This document shows, piece after piece, positions 18,255 through 31,807 of a stretch of 64,000 nucleotides of DNA (positions are counted from its first letter, which is position 1; the number at the start of each line of letters is the position of its first letter). A program made the translations under genes and the position numbers. Origin of the DNA: a candidate division Zixibacteria bacterium HGW-Zixibacteria-1 (GTDB lineage Bacteria > Zixibacteria > MSB-5A5 > GN15 > PGXB01); assembly GCA_002838945.1 (NCBI GenBank), contig PGXB01000004.1:62001-126000 (forward strand), in the 5' to 3' direction. A model generated the notes under the pieces. The model was given only the letters and a program-made list of their open reading frames with translations. It made no database searches and was not told the origin of the DNA.

Positions 18255-19367
18255 TTACGACTGCATCGTTTTCTGCAACTCTTCGAGCAGTTCTTTCTGC
18301 CGCGGGGTGATATCACTTGGGACACCGATATGCACTTCGACATACTGGTCACCCTGGGCCCCATCGACCGAAAGCCCCATGCCTTTCAGGCGCAGTTTCG
18401 TTCCATGCGTCGTGCCCGGTTTGACATTAATATTGACCATTTTGGCCAATGTCTTGACCGGCACCTTGGCGCCGAGAACGGCCTGCGGGTATGATACCTC
18501 GACCGTCGTATAGATGTCATTACCCTTCCGCTCGAATTGCTGGTTTTTGTTTACATTCACGGTTATCAGTAAATCTCCATCGTGTCCGCCGTTGGAACCG
18601 GGATTACCCAGCCCGCGAAGGCGGACAATGCCGCCGTCATCGATTCCGGCGGGTATTTTTATTTTAATTTTTTTCGATTCCTTTACTCTTCCGGATCCGC
18701 CGCAGCGCCCACAGGGCGTTCCGGGTACCAGTCCCTTGCCCAGACATCGCGGACAGGGCCGCGATATGGAGAATCCGCCCTGAGCATAGCTGACCGTACC
18801 GCGCCCATTGCACTGCGTGCATACTTTTTGACCGCTTCCCTTCTGCTCGCCGGTGCCGCCGCAGACATCACAGGTGACCGGCTTGTTCATTCGAAGCGTC
18901 TTGCTCGTGCCGTTGATGGCCTCCTTAAAACTGACATTCAGTTTGAGCGAGAGATGGGCACCGCGATGCGGCTGTGCCGCCCGGTGTTTCCGGCTCCGGC
19001 CGCCAAAAAGATCCTCGCTTCCGAAAATCGAGCTGAAAATGTCGGCGAAGGAGCCCAAACCGCCCAGGTCCTCGAACCGGAAATTGCCGCCGAACTGCGA
19101 GGAGTCCTGAGCACCGCCCCTGGCCTGCCTGTGATCGAAACCGCCGAAAGCGCCGTATTTACGCATGGTATCATACTGGCCGCGTTTCTGCTCATCGCCC
19201 AATATTTCATAAGCTTCCGATATTTCCTTAAACCTGGCCTCGGCAGACGCCTCCCCTTTATTGCGGTCCGGATGAAATTTCTTGGCCAGGGTGCGAAACG
19301 CCTTTTTTATGTCCTCCTTCGAAGCATTTTCAGGCACGCCAAGAACAGTGTAATAATTTTTAGGCAT
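18255..19367 (-). CDS. dnaJ: Chaperone protein DnaJ
   Basis: 370 residues. The J domain carries HPD at residues 32-34; a Gly/Phe-rich segment spans roughly 72-125; four zinc-binding CxxCxGxG repeats lie between Cys166 and about residue 227; the substrate-binding C-terminal domains follow. It stimulates DnaK ATPase and delivers clients. The gene follows dnaK but a strong terminator lies between them, so it either has its own promoter in the 100-base gap or depends on read-through. The full zinc region makes it DnaJ rather than CbpA. Confidence 0.97.
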   Translation of the reverse strand: MPKNYYTVLGVPENASKEDIKKAFRTLAKKFHPDRNKGEASAEARFKEISEAYEILGDEQKRGQYDTMRKYGAFGGFDHRQARGGAQDSSQFGGNFRFEDLGGLGSFADIFSSIFGSEDLFGGRSRKHRAAQPHRGAHLSLKLNVSFKEAINGTSKTLRMNKPVTCDVCGGTGEQKGSGQKVCTQCNGRGTVSYAQGGFSISRPCPRCLGKGLVPGTPCGRCGGSGRVKESKKIKIKIPAGIDDGGIVRLRGLGNPGSNGGHDGDLLITVNVNKNQQFERKGNDIYTTVEVSYPQAVLGAKVPVKTLAKMVNINVKPGTTHGTKLRLKGMGLSVDGAQGDQYVEVHIGVPSDITPRQKELLEELQKTMQS

Positions 19368-19446
19368 CTATATTTATCATCTGCCTTTCCATATATATTA
19401 CGGTTAACTCCAGTTTAATGAAGGCAACCGTTTGAGTCAAATAAAA

Positions 19447-19466
19447 CAGGGGCCCGACGGCCCCTG
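19447..19466 (-). terminator. Rho-independent terminator after dnaK
   Basis: CAGGGGCC pairs with GGCCCCTG around a four-base loop, three bases after the dnaK stop, and the minus strand continues TTTTATTTG. Confidence 0.9.
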
Positions 19467-19469
19467 CTT

Positions 19470-21383
19470 TTATTCATTCACCACTTCGAATTCAGCGTCA
19501 ACCGCCTTATCATCCTTTTTACCCGAATCATTCGATTCGGGTCCCTGAGGGCCGCTGCCGCCCGGCTGCCCGCCCATATTCGGGTTGACATTCTGATACA
19601 TGGTCGAGGCCGCCGTTTGCCAAATTTGATTAAGGGCATCAACCGCGGCCCGCATCTCATCGGTGTTGTCGGTCTTAAGGGCCTCATTGATGCGGTTGAC
19701 CGCCGCCTCAATTTTGGCTTTATTGTCGGCATCGAGTTTATCGCCGAAATCCTTCAGATTCTTTTCGGCTTGGAACACCGCGGCATCGGCCGAGTTGCGA
19801 ATATCGATTTTGCGCCGTTTTTCTTTGTCATCAGCCTCATGCACCTTGGCGTCATTGACCATTTTCTGGATTTCCTGCTCGCTTAATCCGGAAGAAGCCT
19901 CGATTCGGACATTCTGCGATTTGCCGGTAGCCATGTCCTTGGCCGTTACATTTATTATACCATTGGCATCAATGTCAAAAGCGACTTCGACCTGCGGGAT
20001 ACCGCGCGGCGCCGGCGGAAGACCGTCGAGGACGAACCGGCCGATGGTTTTATTGTCGATGGCCATCTCGCGTTCACCCTGCAGAACATGAATATCGACC
20101 TGCGTCTGGCTGTCGGCGGCCGTTGAGAATATCTGCGACTTTTTGGTCGGGATCGTCGTGTTGCGCTCGATCAGACGAGTCGCCACGCCGCCGAGAGTCT
20201 CGATACCAAGCGACAGCGGAGTGACATCCAAAAGCAACACATCTTTGACATCACCGGCCAGGACGCCGCCCTGAATTGCGGCACCGACGGCAACAACTTC
20301 ATCAGAATTGACACTTCGGTTCGGTTCCCGGCCGAAGAGATTCCGGACCAGCTCGATGACTTTCGGCATACGCGTCATGCCGCCGACCAGGATGACATCA
20401 TCGACATCCTTGAAACTGATTTTGGCGTCGGCAATGGCCCGGCGGCACGGTTCCATGGTGCGGTCAAGAAGGTCATCAACCAGCTGCTCGTACCGGGCGC
20501 GGGAGAGCCGGAGATTAAGATGTTTCGGCCCATTGGCATCGGCCGTGACAAAAGGAAGATTAAGGTCGGTTTCCATGGTCGATGACAGTTCGATTTTGGC
20601 CTTTTCCGCCGCTTCTTTCAGGCGCTGGAGAGCCATCGAATCTCTGGACAGGTCAATACCGTCCGTTTTTTTGAATTCGCTGACAAGCCAGTCAATAATC
20701 CGCTTGTCGAAATCATCACCGCCGAGATGCGTATCACCGTTGGTTGACAGCACTTCGAAAACGCCGTCAGAAAGCTCCAGAATAGAGATATCGAAAGTCC
20801 CGCCGCCAAGGTCATACACCGCGATCTTGCCGGTTTTTTTCTTGTCCATGCCATAGGCCAGGGCCGCCGCCGTCGGCTCATTGATAATACGCTGGACATT
20901 CAGTCCGGCGATGCGGCCGGCATCCTTGGTGGCCTGGCGCTGGCTGTCATTAAAATAAGCCGGGACGGTGATGACGGCATCGGTTACTTTCTGCCCGAGG
21001 TATTCCTCGGCTGTCTTTTTCATCTTCGAGAGAATCATGGCCGAAATTTCGGGCGGCGAATAATGCTTCCCGGTCATTTCGACGACCGCCTCGCCCTTGT
21101 CACCGGCGGCGACTTTGTACGGGAAGTTCTTTATTTCCCCGCTGACTTCGTCAAAACGCCGGCCCATAAACCGCTTAATCGAAAAGACGGTATTAAATGG
21201 ATTGGTGACCGCCTGTCGTTTGGCCACCTGTCCGACCAGGCGTTCGCCATTCTTGTCGATGGCCACAACTGAGGGGGTGGTGCGGGCGCCTTCCGAGTTG
21301 GTAATGACGACCGGCTCCTTGCCCTCGACCACCGAGACGACCGAGTTGGTGGTGCCTAAATCTATGCCGATAATTTTACTCAT
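19470..21383 (-). CDS. dnaK: Chaperone protein DnaK (Hsp70)
   Basis: 637 residues. The ATPase domain begins [17 protein letters not shown], with phosphate-2 motif [17 protein letters not shown] and [10 protein letters not shown]; the substrate-binding domain starts near [14 protein letters not shown]; the tail is a disordered Gly/Pro/Asp linker ending DAEFEVVNE. It is the ATP-dependent core chaperone and works with DnaJ and ClpB encoded downstream. A GrpE gene is not in the window. AGGAAAG precedes the ATG. The upstream gap of 95 bases contains the hsp20 terminator and no obvious promoter, so read-through from hsp20 is likely. Confidence 0.98.
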
Positions 21384-21414
21384 TTTCTTTCCTGCCTTTC
21401 ATTTCTATTTTCGC

Positions 21415-21445
21415 AAAAAACGGGCGGGTCGATCCACCCGCCCGT
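21415..21445 (-). terminator. Rho-independent terminator after hsp20
   Basis: A ten-base perfect stem ACGGGCGGGT / ACCCGCCCGT with a six-base loop is followed on the minus strand by TTTTTTGCG. It lies only 32 bases before the dnaK start codon. Confidence 0.92.
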
Positions 21446-21478
21446 CTGCGTGTAACAATTGTGCGACCCGGCTTTTAT

Positions 21479-21922
21479 TTACTTTACGTCGACCTTGATT
21501 TCTTTCGGCAGGGCTTTCTCGTGCTTGGTCAGCATCACATTCAGGACTCCATTCTTGTAGTCCGCCGAAATTTTATCGGAGTCGACATTGTCGGGAAGCG
21601 TGAAGGAGCGCGAAAACGATCCATACAAGCGCTCGCTTCTCAGATAGTTATTGTCTTTCTCTTCCGATTCGAATTTGCGCTCGCCGCTGATAGTGAGAAC
21701 ACCATCCTCGACGACCACTTTAATCTGATCCTTCTCCATTCCGGGAAGTTCCACTTCCAGTCTGATTGACTTCTTGTCTTCGATAATGTCAACGCGCGGC
21801 ATGAAATCGCAGCCGCCTTCGGCCCGAAGAGTCGGGGTATTGAAGATCGAATCGAAAATCGAATCGAAGTCGCGGTTGGCCGTGTTGAGCCATCTGTTCG
21901 GGTTGTATCTTACGAGTGTCAT
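21479..21922 (-). CDS. Small heat shock protein, Hsp20/alpha-crystallin family
   Basis: 147 residues. The alpha-crystallin domain spans about 42-138 (PRVDIIEDKKSIRLEVELPG, GVLTISGERK, SFTLPDNVDSDKISADYKNG, GVLNVMLTK) with a short N-terminal arm and a C-terminal tail KEIKVDVK carrying an I-x-V anchor. It holds unfolding proteins for DnaK/ClpB refolding. AGGAGG lies nine bases before the ATG. It leads the heat-shock cluster hsp20-dnaK-dnaJ-clpB. A TATATAAT box occurs about 60 bases upstream, but no CIRCE repeat was seen. Confidence 0.95.
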   Translation of the reverse strand: MTLVRYNPNRWLNTANRDFDSIFDSIFNTPTLRAEGGCDFMPRVDIIEDKKSIRLEVELPGMEKDQIKVVVEDGVLTISGERKFESEEKDNNYLRSERLYGSFSRSFTLPDNVDSDKISADYKNGVLNVMLTKHEKALPKEIKVDVK

Positions 21923-22125: not shown

Positions 22126-24360
22126 CTATTTGTCGCGCCGGCCCAGGATCTCTTCGGCCGCCTTTGAGAGCTTTGCCCCGCCAAAAAGAATTTTTTGTGA
22201 GGTTGACATCGAATCGTTGAAATCTTTGATTTTTCGCAAAGAATCCTGATCGCCGATTCGCCCCAGCGCCTTAATCGTAGCCATTTTGAGATCATCGCGG
22301 GAGGAACGCCCGGAGGTGAACTGCGACTGAACCTGCTGGTCCGACAGAAGCGAACCGAGGAAGCTCCTGGCTTCGGAACCGCCCAGTTTACCCAGTGAAT
22401 TGATTATACATATAATATCCGAGCGATGCTGCCTGGTCAATTCAATCAGTTCCGGAGCGATGTCGGGCTTGCCGATCAGGCCGAGGGCGATAATGGCGGA
22501 TTCACGTATCTCGCGGTCATCATCGTCGGCCAGCATCAGAAGCAGATCGCAGGACTGCTCTTCGCCGATTTTCTCCAGTGATTGGACGATGGCCCGGCGG
22601 ACCCTGGTGTCCATATCATTTATGCGGACCCTGAGTGCTCGGCAAGCTTCCGGGTCGTTGAGGGTGCTGAGGACAAAAATCGAATTGCGGACAATATACC
22701 ACTTTTCATCAGGCAGTTCCCGTCGTGATTCTTCGCGATCGAAATAACTGCTATTATTCATAATTTCCGAGAAGACCTTAAGCGAGGCTTTGCCCATCTC
22801 GGAGAGAATTTTCAGAACATGCTGTCTGACCTGGCGCGATTCATGAGAAATAATATGTGACAGCTCCAGGGCCGCTTCCTCGGACCCGATAGTGATGAGT
22901 ATATTTCTAATAAACGGAACATTGCTGTTGGGGCCGATGACGAGGTCGCGGACCAATTGCTCGATCACTTCACGGCGATTGAATTCCTCGACCGCTTTCT
23001 TGACCGCCACCGATTCATAACTCCAGACACCTTTGTAACGCGACCGCTTCTCGGAGAGAATATCGCAAATTCGCGACATGTGATCATATTGTTTTTCGGC
23101 AAGCGCAATGCGGGCCAGTTCCCAGATAAGGTCCGAGTATTCGAAGGTTTCTTTCCCCGCTTTAACATATTCGCCTACTTTTTCTATCATGTATTCGATA
23201 AGGTATCCCGCCATGTTCTTCGGATAGACCGAAAGAGCCAGACGAAATAGAACGAGCGATTTTTCGCGCAGATCAAGATTGGGTCCGGCCAGATAGTTAA
23301 GAAGAATGTTAATGACTGCTTTTGCTTTCCCCTGCTGGCCGGTTCGCAACAGGCGGCTGAAGACATCCTTGAAATCGTTCAGGTCATATCCGGGGAGCGC
23401 CTCATTGAAAGTAGCGTTGAGGAACTGGTCGATTTTCTCCGAGGATTCCACTTTGATCAGGCTGGATTCCGGAAGGATACTGGTATAGACCGACTTTTCG
23501 GCACCCTCTTGAACCATCCGGCTGCCAATATTTTCAAGAATCTTTTCCCGTTCCGGATGATAATTAAGGGCGGCAATCATTTCTTTCAGCCGGGTACCGC
23601 CCGAAACATCACTGGAATCTGATTCGGGGACCTCTCCCTTATCGAAGTTAAGAGAAGCCGACAGGCTTTCCTGAATTTTGTCGGCCGGCATGGAAGACAA
23701 TAGTTCCGGGATCAAATAGCCGATAAGAGCGGGTTGATAATCGTGTTTATGGCGGGCGAAGTATTCTTCGAACGGCAGCGCTTCATCGGCCATCAAAGCC
23801 GACAGCTTTTTATAATCATCACCCAGTATTTGGCCGACCACCGCTCTGACCGAGAAGTCGCCAATCAGATCGCCGCGCATGGTGAGGCAGTTTTCGAAGA
23901 TATCATGGCCCATTTCCGAATTCACGCGAATGGTCGTGATTTTATTTTTTTCGAGATAGGTGGCCATCAGATTGCTGAAATCGGACGAGGGCAGTCTTTT
24001 GACGAAGCGATCGAGAAAACGCGACAGATCATTGGCCGACAGGCTCATTTCGAAGAGGATGTCATTCAGGTCAAGCACCTGCATGAAGTTCAGAATATTT
24101 TCGGTAAAGATGGATGGGCGGGTGCGGATATTAAGGGCGTAAAGATGACCGTCCGAAATGTGCAGATTTAGGAATCGTTTGAACCTGAAAATTTTTTCCA
24201 GCATGAGAAAGGCGCGGCTGATCGCTTTTTGCGATAGCGGGTGGCCGCTTGAATAAATAGAGACTTTCTTGGATGCCAGGAAAAACTCTCTGAGGGTTTC
24301 GTGCACAAGTTCGTTTAGATTGAGGCCAAGATCGCTCTCGGTAAATTTGTAGTCTCTCAT
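22126..24360 (-). CDS. HEAT-repeat protein of unknown function
   Basis: 744 residues, no signal peptide. The first ~200 residues form an uncharacterised domain (LNELVHETLREFFLASKKVS, SGHPLSQKAISRAFLMLEKI) that reads like a response-regulator-adjacent helical module. From about 460 to 730 there are HEAT-like helical repeats (LKILSEMGKASLKVFSEIM, VRRAIVQSLEKIGEEQS, IRESAIIALGLIGKPDIAPE, ATIKALGRIGDQDSLRKI), a protein-interaction scaffold. The ATG at 24360 follows GGAG by six bases and lies one base after the stop of the BamB-like gene, so the two are translationally coupled. It is the last gene before a terminator. The protein is probably cytoplasmic, in contrast to its exported partners. Confidence 0.75.
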   Translation of the reverse strand: MRDYKFTESDLGLNLNELVHETLREFFLASKKVSIYSSGHPLSQKAISRAFLMLEKIFRFKRFLNLHISDGHLYALNIRTRPSIFTENILNFMQVLDLNDILFEMSLSANDLSRFLDRFVKRLPSSDFSNLMATYLEKNKITTIRVNSEMGHDIFENCLTMRGDLIGDFSVRAVVGQILGDDYKKLSALMADEALPFEEYFARHKHDYQPALIGYLIPELLSSMPADKIQESLSASLNFDKGEVPESDSSDVSGGTRLKEMIAALNYHPEREKILENIGSRMVQEGAEKSVYTSILPESSLIKVESSEKIDQFLNATFNEALPGYDLNDFKDVFSRLLRTGQQGKAKAVINILLNYLAGPNLDLREKSLVLFRLALSVYPKNMAGYLIEYMIEKVGEYVKAGKETFEYSDLIWELARIALAEKQYDHMSRICDILSEKRSRYKGVWSYESVAVKKAVEEFNRREVIEQLVRDLVIGPNSNVPFIRNILITIGSEEAALELSHIISHESRQVRQHVLKILSEMGKASLKVFSEIMNNSSYFDREESRRELPDEKWYIVRNSIFVLSTLNDPEACRALRVRINDMDTRVRRAIVQSLEKIGEEQSCDLLLMLADDDDREIRESAIIALGLIGKPDIAPELIELTRQHRSDIICIINSLGKLGGSEARSFLGSLLSDQQVQSQFTSGRSSRDDLKMATIKALGRIGDQDSLRKIKDFNDSMSTSQKILFGGAKLSKAAEEILGRRDK

Positions 24361-24361
24361 G

Positions 24362-25489
24362 CTAGTCTCCGAAACATTGTATGGTGCCGTCATGCGCCGC
24401 GACGCAAATTACCTTTCCATCACTGACGGCGGGGAAATTGATGCCCCTTTTGAATTCCCGTTTCGAGACCAATTCGCCGGTGTCTTTGTCGAGACAATAG
24501 AGGTTTCTGTCCAGCGAGGCAAAGAGCAGGTAATCTCCGACGACTATGGGCGAGGAGACGATGACACCGTCGGCCCGAAACTGCCACAGTGTTTCGCCGT
24601 CTGTCTCCGCCAGAGCCATGAGATTGCCGCCGTTGTCGCCGAAGTAGAGCATACCATTGTCCAGCGCCGGCGAGGTCCAGATTGGATACGGGAATGTCTT
24701 TTTCCACACAATATTTCCGGATGACCTGTCGAGGGCGAAGAAGCCGCCCTCGGAGCCGGTGAGATAAACTTTCTCACCTATGACTGCTTTTGTTACCAAA
24801 GGTTGGTCCAGTTCTGCCTCAAATATTTTGTCACCGGTTGCGGCCTTCAGACCCAGTATTGTTCCGTTGTCCTGCGGGAAAAAGACCATTTCGCCGTCAC
24901 CGCTTGGTCCGGCCAGGCATCTGCCTTCGGCCGGGTATTGCCAGAGTTCTTCGCCGGTTTTTTTGTTGAGGCAAATCAACTTACCGTCGGAAGAACCGGC
25001 ATAAAGGCGGTTCTCTATAATTATCGGCGCGCCGGTAACATCCTTTATATTAAAGGCCCACGAGACCTTGCGATTTAGCAGATTAAGGCAAATTAAGCGA
25101 TTTTTGGTCTGGCCGACGGCAAAATAGGCCAGCGAATCCGACACCACAACTCCCGATTGGACCCCGTAACGGGCCTTATACATGCCCAGATAATCCCCTG
25201 TGGCCAGATCATAGAAGAATATCCTGGAGCGGCTGCCGCAGTAGATAAGTTTCCCGGCGCCAATGGTTAACGGCCCCAGGGGGGATTCCGAATTCTTTTT
25301 TTGCCAGATAAGATTCAATTGGCCGCCAAAATCCGACTTGATAACGGCTCCGGCCCCGATATCTTTTCTCGGATATTGCCAGCTTGGCGGCGTCATTATA
25401 TCCGCCCGGGGCAGGGTAAACTGCTTTGAGCAGCCTGATACCAGAAATATGGCCATAATTGCCGGTAGTATGAAGTGTCTGGCATTCAT
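24362..25489 (-). CDS. BamB-like PQQ beta-propeller lipoprotein
   Basis: 375 residues. A lipoprotein signal with lipobox LVSGC (Cys20) anchors it, probably to the outer membrane. The rest is a repeating propeller with PQQ-type blades such as GKLICLNKKTGEELWQYPAE, GGFFALDRSSGNIVWKK, GGNLMALAETDGETLWQFRA and RNLYCLDKDTGELVSKREF. This is the fold of BamB, the accessory subunit of the barrel-assembly machine. The start overlaps the stop of the protease-barrel fusion by one base (TGATG). Context with a BamA-like barrel domain makes an assembly or secretion partner role plausible; a generic PQQ-propeller protein is the alternative. Confidence 0.8.
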   Translation of the reverse strand: MNARHFILPAIMAIFLVSGCSKQFTLPRADIMTPPSWQYPRKDIGAGAVIKSDFGGQLNLIWQKKNSESPLGPLTIGAGKLIYCGSRSRIFFYDLATGDYLGMYKARYGVQSGVVVSDSLAYFAVGQTKNRLICLNLLNRKVSWAFNIKDVTGAPIIIENRLYAGSSDGKLICLNKKTGEELWQYPAEGRCLAGPSGDGEMVFFPQDNGTILGLKAATGDKIFEAELDQPLVTKAVIGEKVYLTGSEGGFFALDRSSGNIVWKKTFPYPIWTSPALDNGMLYFGDNGGNLMALAETDGETLWQFRADGVIVSSPIVVGDYLLFASLDRNLYCLDKDTGELVSKREFKRGINFPAVSDGKVICVAAHDGTIQCFGD

Positions 25490-28299
25490 CAAAAATTCCA
25501 ACCAAAGAAAAAGTCAAAGTTCGTGTTTTTGCTGACTGTCTTGAAATCAGTGGTCCGGGCAAAATCGAAACGGAAGACGACAAATCTTCCCAGTGCGATG
25601 CGAAAGCCGGTGCCGAATGATCCCAATAGATTCTCATCGAAATCATCGGTAAGCAGACGGAACTGCCGGTCGGTTATATATCCGGTATCGAAGAAAACGG
25701 CACCGCGGATAGCCTGGAAGCCGATTCCGCCGATAGGCAGGCCTATGTACAAATTATCGATGAGCGGAAAGCGCAGTTCATTGGAGGCAAAGGCAATATT
25801 CCGGGCATAAAAAGCACGGCGGTTATATCCGCGGAACGACCAGCTTCCGCCGAAATAAATGCGCTGAGGTTCGATTCCGGTTGAGGAGTACACGAAGAAA
25901 CGCGAGGCATAGGCCGAGTATTTCCCCAAACGCAGGTAATTGCGAATGTCGATCAGACCGATGCGGTTGTACTGCCGTCCCTGCTCCAGCCGCGTGGTGA
26001 GACCGAAAGTCAAGTTGTATCGGTGGCCCTCGATCGGTCCGGAAATATCCCAGAGGGAATTGTCGGAGACGATGGACACATAATTGGTCATCATGGCACC
26101 TTTGCGCCGGAACTGGAAGAGCCATTTGTCACGGTCGGAATACCTGATATAAGTGGTCGTCTCCAGGCGGTTGAAACGCGACAAAGGATAATTCACATAA
26201 GCCAGGCCGCCGAGCTGACGCTCGAAATAATATCCGTCATAGTCGTTAAAATATTCGTCGTAAAGATGATAAATTCCCCCGCCCCAGTTAAGGCGATGTT
26301 TCTTGTTGATATAGGTCACGGCAAAATTGAAACTGGACAGGAAGTCATCCTTCGTTTCGGCGGTGTTGGTGAGAAGCAAATAAAACGCATTATCGCCGAG
26401 CATATCCGAGAGAGCCACCTGCAGTCCACCGAGGGAGCCATAAACCGGATCATATGATATGGCCGACTGGGCTATGTCCAGTGAGTATTCGGTTTTATAT
26501 CTGACCGATGATTTGAATGTTTTGCTGCTGAGTTTCCCGGGGCGCCACTGGGCCCGGCCCTGAGGCAGAGAATCAGCGGCAAGAAGCATGGTGTCGCTGA
26601 TACCAACGCGATATATATGCGAGCCGAAATCCTGGTATCCGGAAAATAAAAGATTCTTCTTGTCGGGAGTCAGTCGAGGATCATAGGCCCCGGTCAAAAG
26701 GGCGGTCACTCTGTTTATGGATCCGTCATTGTTAAGGCGATAAATGTTAAAGGCGCCGTCCCGATCAGATGAGAAATAGATGCCTTCTTCCGAGACATCG
26801 GGAGTGATATCGCGCCAGCGTCCGGAAGTCAACTGTCTCGGGGCGCCGCCTCCCGCCGCGACAATAAATAAGTTAATGGCGCCGGCATCGCCCTCAACCG
26901 AGCGGTCGGAGGCGAAAACGATGGAGTCGCCGGCAAGCGTGAAAACCGGGTCCTTGTCCAGATAGAAATCCTTGGTGACACGCTTGAGGTCGCCGTTATT
27001 GAGATTCAGAGTATAAATATCGGTAATGCCGGATCGTCTGGCCCCACTGAAGACGGCCAGCTTGCCATTGGGCGAAAAGCGCGGCGATGAAATTTCGGCC
27101 AGTTCAGGGATTTCATATTTTTCTTTGATCCGGCGTCTCTCCAGATCATACAAGTAGAGAACATCGGCCTCTTTGGATTTGGATGAAAAAAGAATCATGC
27201 CGTCATCATTGGCATCGATACCGCTTTGCAGGAGATGCAACGATTCAAAACTGGCCGATCGTCCGCCTTTTAGCAACGTATAGAGTTTCTTTTTTTCACC
27301 GGCCGGGGGCATCATATATATCCCTGAATAACCCCGCTTGTTGGCTTTGAAAATGATCCACTCCCCCGACTTGTCGCCGTCTTTGAGTTCGATGGGGACC
27401 CCTTTGAGCGAATAGCCGTCCTTGGTCAGTTGTTTTGCTTCGCGCTTGGCGAGGCCGGCATCGGCGATCTGCGGGAAATATCTTTTCTTAAGATGATATT
27501 CCCATTTTTCGGAAATATCTTTCTGCGAATCGCCCAATGTGTAGCGAACAACTTCTTCGAAGTTGGCGCCTTTCCACCAGTTTTCGAAGATAAGGATAAG
27601 TTTGTCGGAACCGTAGTAGTCGTTTATAAATTCGCAAATGGATTGACCGAGTTTGTACATGAAAAAGGTGCCGGAAATTTCATAGAGCCGCGAAATGGGA
27701 AACAATTTTCCGGAAAGCACCATATCCTTCAGGATCATGTCGGCTTCGCTGTCCCATTCGGTTGACCAGTATTCGGCGATTCCCTCGATAAACCACAACG
27801 GCGGCGAAGCGAGCCGGGCCAGTCTTTGCTTGGACATGACCGATTCCAGTTTGGAAATGGTGAAGACATGCACCAGTTCGTGCCGAATGACATGGGCAAA
27901 ACTGTAATAGGAGCCATGGAACGGCACAACGACGCGCCCCTTGAGAAATTCGGTGAAGCCGCCCACCGATTCCGGCAGAAGACTCGGTATGACATTGGTC
28001 TGGGCGAAATAGTTGGGCGAACTGTAAATAATCAGGGGGATCTTGCGATAGACCTCATGCTTGAATTTGGCCGCAAGTTCTTTATAGCCATCCTCGGCGA
28101 TGCGGGCTGCGATCTCACCCAGTTCCTCTTCTTCGGCATAGAAGAAAATCCGGAAATGATCGGTTTCCATCACCTGCCAGTCGAAATTGGTGTACTGCAC
28201 CTTATTCTGCCCGAAATAAAACTGGGAGTTAGCAGCCGCCGGCAGTAAAATGAGAATTACTGCAAGGGCCAGGAGGTATTTTAACGTCGAGGTAATCAT
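25489..28299 (-). CDS. Zinc metalloprotease - beta-propeller - BamA-like barrel fusion
   Basis: 936 residues from the ATG at 28299. A signal peptide (LLALAVILILLPAAANS) is followed by a peptidase-MA-like domain with HELVH at 140-144 and WFIEGIAEYW, where Glu172 is the likely third zinc ligand. Residues about 310-600 contain WD40/PD40-like propeller blades (SPRFSPNGKLAVFSGAR, DPVFTLAGDSIVFASDRS, GIYFSSDRDGAFNIYRL, DPRLTPDKKNLLFSGYQ). From about 610 to the end is a surface-antigen/BamA-type barrel with SFRGYNRRA near 823 and a terminal Phe. This predicts a protease tethered outside or under the outer membrane by its own barrel. It is coupled to the BamB-like gene. Substrate and function are unknown. 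Confidence 0.82.
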   Translation of the reverse strand: MITSTLKYLLALAVILILLPAAANSQFYFGQNKVQYTNFDWQVMETDHFRIFFYAEEEELGEIAARIAEDGYKELAAKFKHEVYRKIPLIIYSSPNYFAQTNVIPSLLPESVGGFTEFLKGRVVVPFHGSYYSFAHVIRHELVHVFTISKLESVMSKQRLARLASPPLWFIEGIAEYWSTEWDSEADMILKDMVLSGKLFPISRLYEISGTFFMYKLGQSICEFINDYYGSDKLILIFENWWKGANFEEVVRYTLGDSQKDISEKWEYHLKKRYFPQIADAGLAKREAKQLTKDGYSLKGVPIELKDGDKSGEWIIFKANKRGYSGIYMMPPAGEKKKLYTLLKGGRSASFESLHLLQSGIDANDDGMILFSSKSKEADVLYLYDLERRRIKEKYEIPELAEISSPRFSPNGKLAVFSGARRSGITDIYTLNLNNGDLKRVTKDFYLDKDPVFTLAGDSIVFASDRSVEGDAGAINLFIVAAGGGAPRQLTSGRWRDITPDVSEEGIYFSSDRDGAFNIYRLNNDGSINRVTALLTGAYDPRLTPDKKNLLFSGYQDFGSHIYRVGISDTMLLAADSLPQGRAQWRPGKLSSKTFKSSVRYKTEYSLDIAQSAISYDPVYGSLGGLQVALSDMLGDNAFYLLLTNTAETKDDFLSSFNFAVTYINKKHRLNWGGGIYHLYDEYFNDYDGYYFERQLGGLAYVNYPLSRFNRLETTTYIRYSDRDKWLFQFRRKGAMMTNYVSIVSDNSLWDISGPIEGHRYNLTFGLTTRLEQGRQYNRIGLIDIRNYLRLGKYSAYASRFFVYSSTGIEPQRIYFGGSWSFRGYNRRAFYARNIAFASNELRFPLIDNLYIGLPIGGIGFQAIRGAVFFDTGYITDRQFRLLTDDFDENLLGSFGTGFRIALGRFVVFRFDFARTTDFKTVSKNTNFDFFFGWNF

Positions 28300-28456: not shown

Positions 28457-29446
28457 TCATTGAATTATATTCAAATCATGGCTGCAGTTTTTACATTTAC
28501 CGTTTTCGAGTTCCAATATTTCGATATGATAACCGCTTCGGCAAATAAGCCGCTCCTTACATTGGGGGCAAAAGGTGTCCGATCTGTCCGGGATCCTGAC
28601 ATTTCCAAGATATACGAAATCCAATTTTTTTGAAGAGATTTCATAGGCCCGCATCAGTTTTTGCACGGATGTGGGCGGATTGTTCATCTTGTAAGTGGGA
28701 TAATAGGCGGAAAAATGCAGTGGAATATGTGTCGAAACTGAGGCTACAAAGTCGCTGATCGCTTCAAAATCATGATCGGAATCGTTCAGGCCGGTTATGA
28801 CCAGATTGGTTATTTCAATTTTCACCCCGGCTTCGTGGAAATGCTTGATATTATCCAGAACCGGCTGCAGTTTTCCTTTGCAGATTCGCTTATAAAAATC
28901 GGGGCTCATGCTCTTGAGATCAACATTGGCGGCATCGATCAGAGGGAGCAATTCCATGAGCGGTTTCTCATTGATGTAGCCATTGGTGACAAGAACATTT
29001 TTGAGTCCGGCATCTTTGATCAATTTCCCGGCCTCCCTGATATATTCAAACCAGATCAGCGGTTCGGTATAAGTGTAGGCAATACCGATGGAGCCGTTGC
29101 GGCCGGCCAGATTGACCAGATCGGGCGGAGCGACGAACCGGGTTGGAACATGCCCCTGCGAAATTTCCCAGTTCTGGCAGTTACTGCAGTTAAGATTGCA
29201 ACCGTTGGGACCGGTCGAGAAAATGGCCTTGCCGGGGTGGAAATGATACAGCGGCTTCTTTTCGACCGGATCATAGCAGGCGCTGACCAGTTCCCCAAAG
29301 TTGTCCGTCATTAACTTGCCATTGGAATTAAACCGCGAACCGCAGATACCGATTTTGCCCTCGGTGAGGAGACATTCTGCGGGACAAAGATGACAGCGGA
29401 CCTTGCCGCCGTCAAGTAACTCCGAATATGCCGCATCAACTATCAT
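28457..29446 (-). CDS. amrS: AmmeMemoRadiSam-system radical SAM enzyme
   Basis: 329 residues. The radical SAM cluster motif is Cys83-x3-Cys87-x2-Cys90 (CNLNCSNC), in the family context DPVEKKPLYHFHPGK ... GPNGCNLNCSNCQNW. N-terminal CHLCPAEC and C-terminal CPQC/CKNC pairs add metal sites. Radical SAM enzymes cleave SAM to a 5'-deoxyadenosyl radical; the substrate of this family is not settled. Usual partners are AMMECR1 and MEMO proteins, and none is seen here. The ATG at 29446 is chosen over a GTG at 29464; it overlaps the end of the glycosyltransferase gene by 11 bases. The gene symbol follows common annotation practice. Confidence 0.85.
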   Translation of the reverse strand: MIVDAAYSELLDGGKVRCHLCPAECLLTEGKIGICGSRFNSNGKLMTDNFGELVSACYDPVEKKPLYHFHPGKAIFSTGPNGCNLNCSNCQNWEISQGHVPTRFVAPPDLVNLAGRNGSIGIAYTYTEPLIWFEYIREAGKLIKDAGLKNVLVTNGYINEKPLMELLPLIDAANVDLKSMSPDFYKRICKGKLQPVLDNIKHFHEAGVKIEITNLVITGLNDSDHDFEAISDFVASVSTHIPLHFSAYYPTYKMNNPPTSVQKLMRAYEISSKKLDFVYLGNVRIPDRSDTFCPQCKERLICRSGYHIEILELENGKCKNCSHDLNIIQ

Positions 29447-31028
29447 CGCCGCTGATTCCTCCACCCCTCACCACATATTTTACGGCTTCATGGAAGTTTT
29501 CGGTGATTATTTCCGGGCCAAGCACATAAGGAATCTGCAACAGTTTTTCTTCCTGTTTGCCGAAACCGGTCCGGACAAGAATCCCGCGTCCGCCCGAGAC
29601 TGCGGCCAATTGAATGTCGGTCATTTTATCACCAATGACAAAGGAGTTAAAGGGATTAATATTGTGCCGCAGGCAGGCCAGTTCCAGCATCCCCGCCGAC
29701 GGTTTTCGACAGGAACATTCGATTGCATATTGAGGCAACTCGCCCTTGATATAATGCGGGCAATAGTGAATCTCGTCGATGGGCGCCCCTGATGAGGCAA
29801 AGATATCGAGCACCCTCTGGTTGACCAGCCGCACCATTTCCTCGTCATAATATCCGCGGGCGACTCCTGACTGATTGGTGAGTCCAATAATTTTGTACCC
29901 GGCATCGCGAGCCATTCGAACCGATTCCACCGCTTTGTACTCGGGTTCAACTTCACCCGGATCGCGAAGGTATCCTTTTTCCCTGATCAGGGTGCCGTCC
30001 CGGTCGATAAATAAAGCCTTCTCTCCCCCGGTTTTTGACTTTATTCGTTCCGTAACCTTCTCCATGACATCATCAATTGAAATTCGGTCAAAGCAGTACT
30101 GGTGGTCGCGATAGCAGGCCCGCCTTCCATGCAATGAACAGGGTCGGCATGGTTCGTCCACCTGCATGATGCAATCACGCAGGCCGCGCGGTGAAAAACC
30201 GAGAGTCGGGTGGGTCGGGCCAAACAGGGCAATGACCGGGGTTCCGACGGCCGAACCGATATGCGCCAGCGCCGAGTCGTTACAGATTAGCAGGTCGGTT
30301 CCGGCGATAATCTGCGCCAGTTCGGCGAGTTCGGCATTGACGAATATTTTCAGCCTGTCGAGCGGTATTTCATCCCGCAGCGACTCCATCTGTTCATCAA
30401 TATCAGCCAATAATAGAACGACGTTGGCCGGGTTACGTTTAAATATTTCCAGAGATAGCTTGCGGAAGCGGTCAGGCGGCCACTGTTTCGACGGAAACGA
30501 GGCCCCCGGCGCGATGGCGATGTGCGGCAGTGATTCGGTCAGATCAAAGTCCATACGCTCGGAAGGTTTCAGCCGGATTACCGGGCGCCGGGCATAGATG
30601 CGGCTGCCGGCTTTTTGAACGGCCATATTGTACAGGTCGATCGTGTGCGGGGGATCGGGGTTCAGTTTATGCAACCTGACGGATGCCCACCGCTCAAAGC
30701 GGCGTTTGGGATATTGCACTTTGACACCGGCGGCGATATGTTTCATAAGATATTTTGAACGGAGGTTGCCGTGCAGATCGACAATCATGTCGAAACCGAT
30801 TTTGTCCAGATGTTCCGCCATCCGAAACAGGTCTCTTAATGAAGCATGAGCCGGGAACTCGATGATCTCATCCACCCCGGAAAACATCGAGGCCAGTTTG
30901 GCGATTTTCGATCGTGTTAATAATAAGATTCTGGCGCCGGGATTCGATATTTTTAAATTCAGAATAGCGGGCGAGGTCAGGACAACATCGCCGATCGCCC
31001 CGAGTCTGATAACAAGTATCCGTTTCAT
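29436..31028 (-). CDS. GT9 heptosyltransferase fused to GmhB-like HAD phosphatase
   Basis: 530 residues with two enzymes in one chain. Residues 1-330 are a GT9 (LPS heptosyltransferase-type) domain: MKRILVIRLGAIGDVVLT, HIAIAPGASFPSKQWPPDRF, LICNDSALAHIGSAVGTP. Residues 337-510 are a HAD phosphatase of the D,D-heptose 1,7-bisphosphate type with nucleophile motif DRDGT (Asp342, Asp344), zinc ligands Cys423, His425, Cys438 and Cys440, and GDKMTD at 466-471. The first would transfer a heptose and the second make the heptose 1-phosphate precursor, both for the LPS core. ATG at 31028 lies five bases after the uppP stop. A fusion of these two activities is unusual and worth noting. Confidence 0.9.
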   Translation of the reverse strand: MKRILVIRLGAIGDVVLTSPAILNLKISNPGARILLLTRSKIAKLASMFSGVDEIIEFPAHASLRDLFRMAEHLDKIGFDMIVDLHGNLRSKYLMKHIAAGVKVQYPKRRFERWASVRLHKLNPDPPHTIDLYNMAVQKAGSRIYARRPVIRLKPSERMDFDLTESLPHIAIAPGASFPSKQWPPDRFRKLSLEIFKRNPANVVLLLADIDEQMESLRDEIPLDRLKIFVNAELAELAQIIAGTDLLICNDSALAHIGSAVGTPVIALFGPTHPTLGFSPRGLRDCIMQVDEPCRPCSLHGRRACYRDHQYCFDRISIDDVMEKVTERIKSKTGGEKALFIDRDGTLIREKGYLRDPGEVEPEYKAVESVRMARDAGYKIIGLTNQSGVARGYYDEEMVRLVNQRVLDIFASSGAPIDEIHYCPHYIKGELPQYAIECSCRKPSAGMLELACLRHNINPFNSFVIGDKMTDIQLAAVSGGRGILVRTGFGKQEEKLLQIPYVLGPEIITENFHEAVKYVVRGGGISGDDS

Positions 31029-31033
31029 CGCAT

Positions 31034-31807
31034 TCAAATAAAATATATTATGCCGATTATTCCAACGACCAGGCAGTAGATACCGAAATATTTGAATTTG
31101 CCTTTCTTGATTAAATCAAGCAAGAGATAAACGGCAAAGAGTCCGGTCAAAAAAGCAATGACCGTCCCGACCGCATATTGGCCGATCAGGCCGGTATCAA
31201 TGGAGATAATTTCTCTTGACTTGAAAATAATGGCTCCGATAATGGCCGGAATCGACAACATAAAGGAATATTCGGCGGCTTCAATCGGTTTAACGCCGGC
31301 AAACAGTCCGGCTGAAATGGTCATTCCGGAACGAGATATTCCCGGAAGTATCGCCAGAGCCTGGGCAATCCCGATTAAAAGGGAGCGCGGCGCATCGATC
31401 ATCCTGGTTCCCTTGCCGAAGGAAGAGGTCAGGAGAAGCACAACACCGGTGAAGACCAGAAACATGGCCGCGGCAAAAGGAGATGCAAAAGCGCTCTCAA
31501 TCAGATTGTCAAATAAGAGGGCTATTATAGCGGCCGGGATCGTGCCCAGTATCAGATAATGAATAAATTTTCTTTCGGATTTGAGAGCCGGCGTATATAG
31601 AGCCCTGATCAAAGCAAATACCTTTTTCCTGAAATAAATAAGCACCGACATCAGGGTTCCGAAATGGACGACCAGTTCAAACATCACGCCCGGCATTTTT
31701 GCACCCAGCAGATACTCTCCCAAAACCAGGTGCCCCGATGATGAGACCGGTAAAAATTCCGTCAATCCCTGAATAATGCCAAGGATGATTGAATCAAGGT
31801 ATGTCAT
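31034..31807 (-). CDS. uppP: Undecaprenyl-diphosphatase UppP (BacA)
   Basis: 257 residues, integral membrane. The two conserved active-site motifs are present: GLTEFLPVSSSGHLVLGEYL and PGISRSGMTISAGL, with about eight hydrophobic helices. It dephosphorylates undecaprenyl diphosphate so that the lipid carrier can be reused for peptidoglycan and LPS sugar assembly; it often confers bacitracin resistance. It leads the unit with the heptosyltransferase/phosphatase fusion. Its ribosome site overlaps the stem of a terminator at 31811-31835, four bases from the ATG, which suggests regulation at this junction. Confidence 0.97.
   Translation of the reverse strand: MTYLDSIILGIIQGLTEFLPVSSSGHLVLGEYLLGAKMPGVMFELVVHFGTLMSVLIYFRKKVFALIRALYTPALKSERKFIHYLILGTIPAAIIALLFDNLIESAFASPFAAAMFLVFTGVVLLLTSSFGKGTRMIDAPRSLLIGIAQALAILPGISRSGMTISAGLFAGVKPIEAAEYSFMLSIPAIIGAIIFKSREIISIDTGLIGQYAVGTVIAFLTGLFAVYLLLDLIKKGKFKYFGIYCLVVGIIGIIYFI

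Follow-up and report, generated by a model that had tools for sequence, protein, structure and literature searches.

A conserved zinc peptidase-propeller-barrel fusion and its propeller lipoprotein neighbour in Zixibacteria

A single gene within a 64,000-nucleotide stretch of Zixibacteria DNA (the window, as the whole of that stretch is called here) encodes a protein in which a predicted zinc peptidase, a six-bladed propeller and an Omp85-type barrel are joined on one chain. This protease-propeller-barrel fusion is real, strongly conserved and apparently an unstudied outer-membrane machine. Propeller-Omp85 fusions are already known, and what is added here is a zinc peptidase on such a barrel. 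The role tentatively proposed is that of a barrel-anchored, periplasm-facing protease for the quality control or processing of outer-membrane proteins.

The fusion gene and its domains

In the sequence, the fusion gene opens with an ATG at 28299 and closes with a TGA at 25491-25489. Its recognised parts, together with the two genes that follow it, are listed below with the evidence for each.

25489..28299, minus strand: fusion gene, 936 aa, with signal peptide, gluzincin peptidase, TolB-type six-bladed propeller and Omp85 16-strand barrel
28225..28299, minus strand: signal peptide, residues 1-25, MITSTLKYLLALAVILILLPAAANS with Q following (hydrophobic core and AxS-Q site)
27424..28224, minus strand: peptidase domain, residues 26-292 (Peptidase_MA_2, AF2, Foldseek)
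27868..27882, minus strand: zinc motif HELVH, with H140, E141 and H144 (invariance across orthologues)
27766..27795, minus strand: WFIEGIAEYW, with E172 as the putative third ligand, the gluzincin Glu (invariance)
26575..27423, minus strand: TolB/PD40-type propeller, residues 293-575, six blades of four strands (profiles, AF2, Foldseek)
25492..26487, minus strand: Omp85-type 16-strand barrel, residues 605-936, with C-terminal Phe (NCBIfam, AF2, Foldseek)
25825..25836, minus strand: FRGY, residues 822-825, VRGF-like loop-6 motif of Omp85 barrels (R823 and G824 invariant)
24362..25489, minus strand: BamB-like PQQ-propeller lipoprotein, 375 aa (PQQ_2/BamB matches, lipobox VSGC)
22126..24360, minus strand: HEAT-repeat protein, 744 aa, lacking a signal peptide (HEAT_2, 7.1e-27)

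That one 936-residue gene combines a zinc peptidase, a propeller and a barrel had been claimed in a preliminary description of the window, and profile searches, AlphaFold2 (AF2) and Foldseek all confirm it. The AF2 model of the fusion, for which the input alignment held 61 sequences, reached a mean pLDDT of 84.6 and a pTM of 0.81, and places a signal-peptide helix at residues 2-22, a helix-rich N-domain, a propeller of six times four strands and a barrel of about 16, with a C-terminal barrel forming in the prediction for the full chain. Against the PDB, the whole fusion was matched by Foldseek to TolB first (E 1.8e-10), with many BamA and TamA barrels among the top 50 and barrel-only target TM-scores of 0.57-0.64. 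The synteny across the phylum, the homologues beyond it, a second fusion paralogue in the genome and the weak linkage of the HEAT gene, all treated below, had no place in the preliminary description.

The domain profiles named in the preliminary description fared unevenly. PD40 was found (3.2e-9 in Pfam), while Peptidase_MA_2 stayed under its Pfam cut-off of 32.4 bits in the fusion (27.0 bits, 4.6e-6), with homologues scoring 38.4, 44.1 and 43.3 and another 20.6. For the barrel, the Omp85_fam match in NCBIfam over residues 814-930 is weak and below cut-off (8.4e-8), and the Pfam Omp85 model PF01103 gave no reported match for the window's fusion protein. All three domains do lie above Pfam's curated cut-offs in a homologue from outside the phylum that is 45% identical to the fusion (locus L157). 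TolB, itself a six-bladed PD40 propeller, is the best structural match to the fusion propeller and was also found by profile search (1.6e-32); the NCBIfam match, over the propeller domain only (9.7e-26), scores 90.6 bits against the equivalog cut-off of 343 (TIGR02800).

Modelled alone (AF2 pLDDT 84.7, pTM 0.83), the peptidase domain was matched best by Foldseek to collagenase H (8.3e-6, prob 1.00), and further matches included leukotriene A4 hydrolase (LTA4H), tricorn factor F3, aminopeptidase N (APN) and an M61 enzyme. For collagenase H, LTA4H, APN and M61 the probabilities were about 1.00, and for the M9 and M1 structures the TM-scores were moderate, at 0.38-0.59 on the query. A profile search found the M9 collagenases weakly (E 0.003), and a viral fold search returned distant peptidase-like matches only. 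The zinc-site residues were as the preliminary description had read them, with HELVH at residues 140-144 and Glu172 within WFIEGIAEYW. The sequence thus holds the HExxH and downstream Glu of the gluzincins (clan MA(E)) and the model their fold, which supports a gluzincin with no particular named family favoured.

The predicted 16-strand C-terminal barrel is related to those of BamA and TamA and carries the (V/I)RG(F/Y) motif of Omp85 barrels as FRGY. A Pfam scan found no POTRA domain in the fusion, the POTRA matches of the genome sitting elsewhere; the protein is still filed here as an Omp85 variant, because PMC4104836 accepts the WD40 and noNterm subgroups as exceptions.

Conservation and the lipoprotein partner

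All 133 of the Zixibacteria genomes searched hold a match to the fusion at E <= 0.001. Most have a full-length orthologue of 45-81% identity and some hold fragments only, often at contig ends; for G087 (2.1e-7) and G074 (4.0e-13) there are matches with no orthologue shown, and nearly all of the 133 match through a true fusion orthologue. None of the 61 orthologues departs from H140, E141, H144 and E172, nor from Y215 or, in the barrel, R823, G824, E841 and D871, and the C-terminal Phe is invariant or nearly so in the same 61 sequences. The zinc ligands are kept in all 69 peptidase domains that were aligned, 20 of them taken from loci outside the phylum. Mean identity to the window's fusion is highest in the peptidase (61%), followed by the barrel (58%) and the propeller (46%), and lowest in the signal peptide (22%), and the peptidase domain is almost without length change across the phylum. 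Conservation throughout the phylum excludes chance or artefact as the origin of the fusion, and the invariant catalytic residues speak against a degenerate or inactive protease.

A search of 387 genomes that extended beyond the phylum found end-to-end homologues in at least 14 outside genomes from at least 13 families; at least five more have long matches that are partial or split. A protein of about 633 aa from Salinibacter ruber (WP_118831798.1, 'basic secretory protein-like') is homologous to residues 28-537 of the fusion; it has the peptidase and propeller, and the homology found stops short of the barrel. As this protein apparently has no barrel, anchoring by a barrel would not be essential to the enzyme.

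The lipoprotein gene begins at the ATG at 25489, which overlaps the stop of the fusion gene by one base (TGATG), and ends with a TAG at 24364-24362, one base before the ATG of the HEAT gene at 24360; the overlap and the one-base gap, both described earlier, were confirmed at base level. The name 'BamB-like' holds as a description of the fold, BamB being likewise a PQQ-type propeller lipoprotein, and fails at the BamB equivalog TIGR03300, where the protein scores 118.4 bits against a cut-off of 285; moreover, the second gene adjoins the fusion and not bamA. Plain BamB for the second gene and plain TolB for the fusion are thus both excluded by curated cut-offs. The lipobox Cys is present in the window's protein (VSGC), and the strict lipobox pattern is found in 42 of 59 relatives, the others, whose start sites are uncurated, often having a Cys at the site.

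Sixty Zixibacteria fusion loci were examined, and 59 have downstream sequence in which a partner could be sought. The lipoprotein gene lies no more than 356 bp downstream of the fusion in 57 of the 59, and 2.2-2.3 kb from it in the remaining two. At seven loci outside the phylum, from six families (L156, L157, L158, L159, L171, L172 and L173), the lipoprotein gene comes directly after the fusion or overlaps it, and together these counts support the earlier proposal that the lipoprotein is a partner of the fusion. It is not an obligatory one, since at least 10 fusion loci outside the phylum have no adjoining lipoprotein gene. A distance correlation with DnaK as the control gave, in a small sample, a partial r of 0.78 for fusion and lipoprotein, with 0.46 for HEAT and 0.47 for Hsp20, and is suggestive of coupling between the first two.

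At four of the outside loci (L158, L159, L172 and L173) the gene after that of the lipoprotein encodes a possible third partner, about 270 aa long and in two cases PEGA-like by eye.

Relatives and proposed role

The fusion peptidase has the HExxH, the downstream Glu and the fold in common with gluzincins such as M9 collagenase, M1 aminopeptidase and M61, and differs from them in its low identity (9-17%, with no MEROPS family assignment) and in its anchoring by a barrel. The M9 and M1 relatives include nutrient- or collagen-degrading enzymes. A different family, PF00149, is that of the metallophosphoesterases. It is the one behind the 'Metallo' class of Heinz and Lithgow, who in 2014 described WD40-Omp85 fusions, likened to a fusion of BamA with BamB and grouped among the non-POTRA N-termini (PMC4104836). 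In that subfamily, as in the window's fusion, a TolB-like propeller stands ahead of an Omp85 barrel, and the earlier impression that no established system has this layout needs tempering to that extent; a peptidase for WD40-Omp85 is mentioned nowhere in the text of that paper (PMC4104836). No description of a peptidase-TolB-Omp85 fusion was found in the literature, among the open-licence papers covered.

Two further systems bear on where such a protease would work. In PlpD and the patatin-Omp85 proteins, as in the fusion, an enzyme lies N-terminal to an Omp85 barrel, and the enzyme domain of PlpD, the one such fusion that is well studied, stays in the periplasm although it had long been taken to be translocated (PMC11116518); PlpD has a patatin lipase and POTRA where the window's protein has a zinc peptidase and a propeller. 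BepA of E. coli cleaves stalled outer-membrane proteins at BAM (PMC13067283) and offers a functional analogy, that of a zinc protease at work on an Omp85 machine with a propeller lipoprotein among its parts, with the difference that BepA is a soluble M48 protein and a separate polypeptide, whereas the fusion protease is on the same chain as the barrel.

Following export by Sec, the C-terminal barrel of the fusion would be inserted in the outer membrane, and the propeller and peptidase would hang in the periplasm at the place of POTRA domains. Envelope proteins that are unfolded or immature would be recruited or gated by the TolB/tricorn-like propeller and the PQQ-propeller lipoprotein and passed on to the gluzincin site, where they would be clipped. 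Most likely the protein would then control the quality of outer-membrane proteins or lipoproteins, or mature them, on the inner side of the membrane, in a mode akin to that of BepA with BAM but with one chain made from unrelated parts. The periplasmic placement rests on the signal peptide and the C-terminal barrel, read in the usual Omp85 topology, and the precedent of PlpD argues against the word 'secreted', which had been used for the protease and is doubtful (PMC11116518); the tethering to the outer membrane, with a propeller of its own, is supported, as is the domain order. With PlpD in the periplasm and BepA cutting at BAM, the favoured reading would be one of quality control or maturation just inside the outer membrane, the propellers serving as receptors.

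A fuller version of this proposal, which is a shade more doubtful, is that of a dedicated quality-control or maturation machine apart from BAM and BepA, with protease, propeller receptor and barrel on one chain and an almost obligatory propeller lipoprotein, ubiquitous in the phylum, present outside it and never characterised. Several observations count against quality control: the outside loci without the lipoprotein, the barrel-less Salinibacter enzyme, the degradative M9 and M1 relatives and the position of the fusion away from bamA, which was not found beside it, a BamA-like protein with five POTRA domains being encoded on a different contig (C17). Surface delivery and cargo maturation are the main alternatives, each less likely.

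Under the first of these, the barrel would carry the peptidase, with or without the propeller, to the cell surface or release it, as a secreted degradative or nutrient-acquiring protease. Such a role is unlikely, even with secreted collagenases and aminopeptidases among the fold relatives and a free peptidase-propeller protein in Salinibacter, and even with surface delivery having been raised for enzyme-Omp85 fusions by Heinz and Lithgow (PMC4104836), as the domain of the prototype, PlpD, was found to be periplasmic (PMC11116518). A folded peptidase and propeller would also make a poor passenger, an unsystematic look brought up no segment for the cleavage or release of a passenger, and presence in every genome of the phylum suggests housekeeping and not a niche exoenzyme.

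To much the same degree improbable is a maturation protease of a specific secretion or surface-lipoprotein pathway, which would cut its cargo while it crosses, with PorU, the sortase on the PorV barrel, as its functional counterpart. The membrane-tethered protease, the propeller receptors and the near-fixed lipoprotein partner all fit such a role, and coupling of protease to barrel would put the cutting at the translocation site, but the surroundings of the loci showed neither cargo genes nor conserved sorting signals.

Less probable again is an additional assembly factor of the BAM or TAM type, in which the propellers replace POTRA, the lipoprotein is the BamB of the phylum and proteolysis is secondary. 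The resemblance of WD40-Omp85 to a BamA-BamB fusion speaks for it (PMC4104836), as does the lipoprotein being the sole compact PQQ-propeller protein found in the genome, whose context was read from stretches of its contigs; the window's lipoprotein could conceivably serve as the BamB of the BAM complex. Against it, the peptidase is the best conserved domain, with an active site that never varies, and the genome already has its canonical BamA and two TamA-like proteins (C12 and C23), the latter named by their arrangement beside long TamB-like frames.

If the quality-control reading holds and a protease does sit inside the assembly scaffold of the outer membrane, some bacteria have fused surveillance parts that are kept separate in E. 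coli. The fusion also brings a zinc protease to the few enzymes known on Omp85 barrels. With a match in all 133 genomes searched and unchanging catalytic residues, the gene is a good candidate for a core function of the envelope. Zixibacteria are known here from MAGs alone, and the homologues outside the phylum may give a tractable host for testing.

The HEAT gene, the wider neighbourhood and other barrel proteins

The trio of fusion, lipoprotein and HEAT genes co-occurs at other Zixibacteria loci, which, like the predicted barrel, goes against the refutations named in the preliminary description, and in close relatives the order UppP, GT9 transferase, radical-SAM protein, fusion, lipoprotein, HEAT, Hsp20, DnaK and DnaJ is kept. 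A complex of all three proteins, as first suggested, is nevertheless overstated, since the HEAT protein has no signal peptide, its gene comes after that of the lipoprotein in some two thirds of cases (36 of about 55 testable Zixibacteria loci, being upstream or missing in the rest), and it was found next to the fusion-lipoprotein pair at none of the loci examined outside the phylum. Probably the HEAT protein is cytoplasmic and shares the transcript as a neighbour, outside the machine. That the three adjoining genes form a chance or transcript-convenience cluster of unrelated functions is very improbable, for all that the HEAT gene is lost or moved at many loci and the wider cluster is mixed, because fusion and lipoprotein stay together in 57 of 59 loci while other neighbours change, and do so again outside the phylum; chance clustering is largely refuted for these two genes and stands for the HEAT gene.

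In the window, the Hsp20, DnaK and DnaJ genes lie directly downstream of the trio (18255-21922, minus strand), in an order common to many Zixibacteria. At 29436-31037 (minus strand) is a gene for a 533-aa protein with a GT9 heptosyltransferase and a HAD phosphatase domain, GmhB-like by eye, which adjoins the fusion gene in close relatives and is possibly a one-chain LPS heptose module.

Elsewhere in the same genome are a separate 455-aa frame with a propeller match and a PlpD-like patatin-POTRA-Omp85 protein (C44; L113:7584-10199), with all three domains above Pfam cut-offs. A further paralogue with peptidase, propeller and barrel, the second fusion of this kind in the genome, is 1124 aa long and has an acidic insert ahead of its barrel (G000:C56:2391-5765, L102). 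It keeps HELTH and WFAEG, has no lipoprotein neighbour and lies 40 bp from a murA-like gene.
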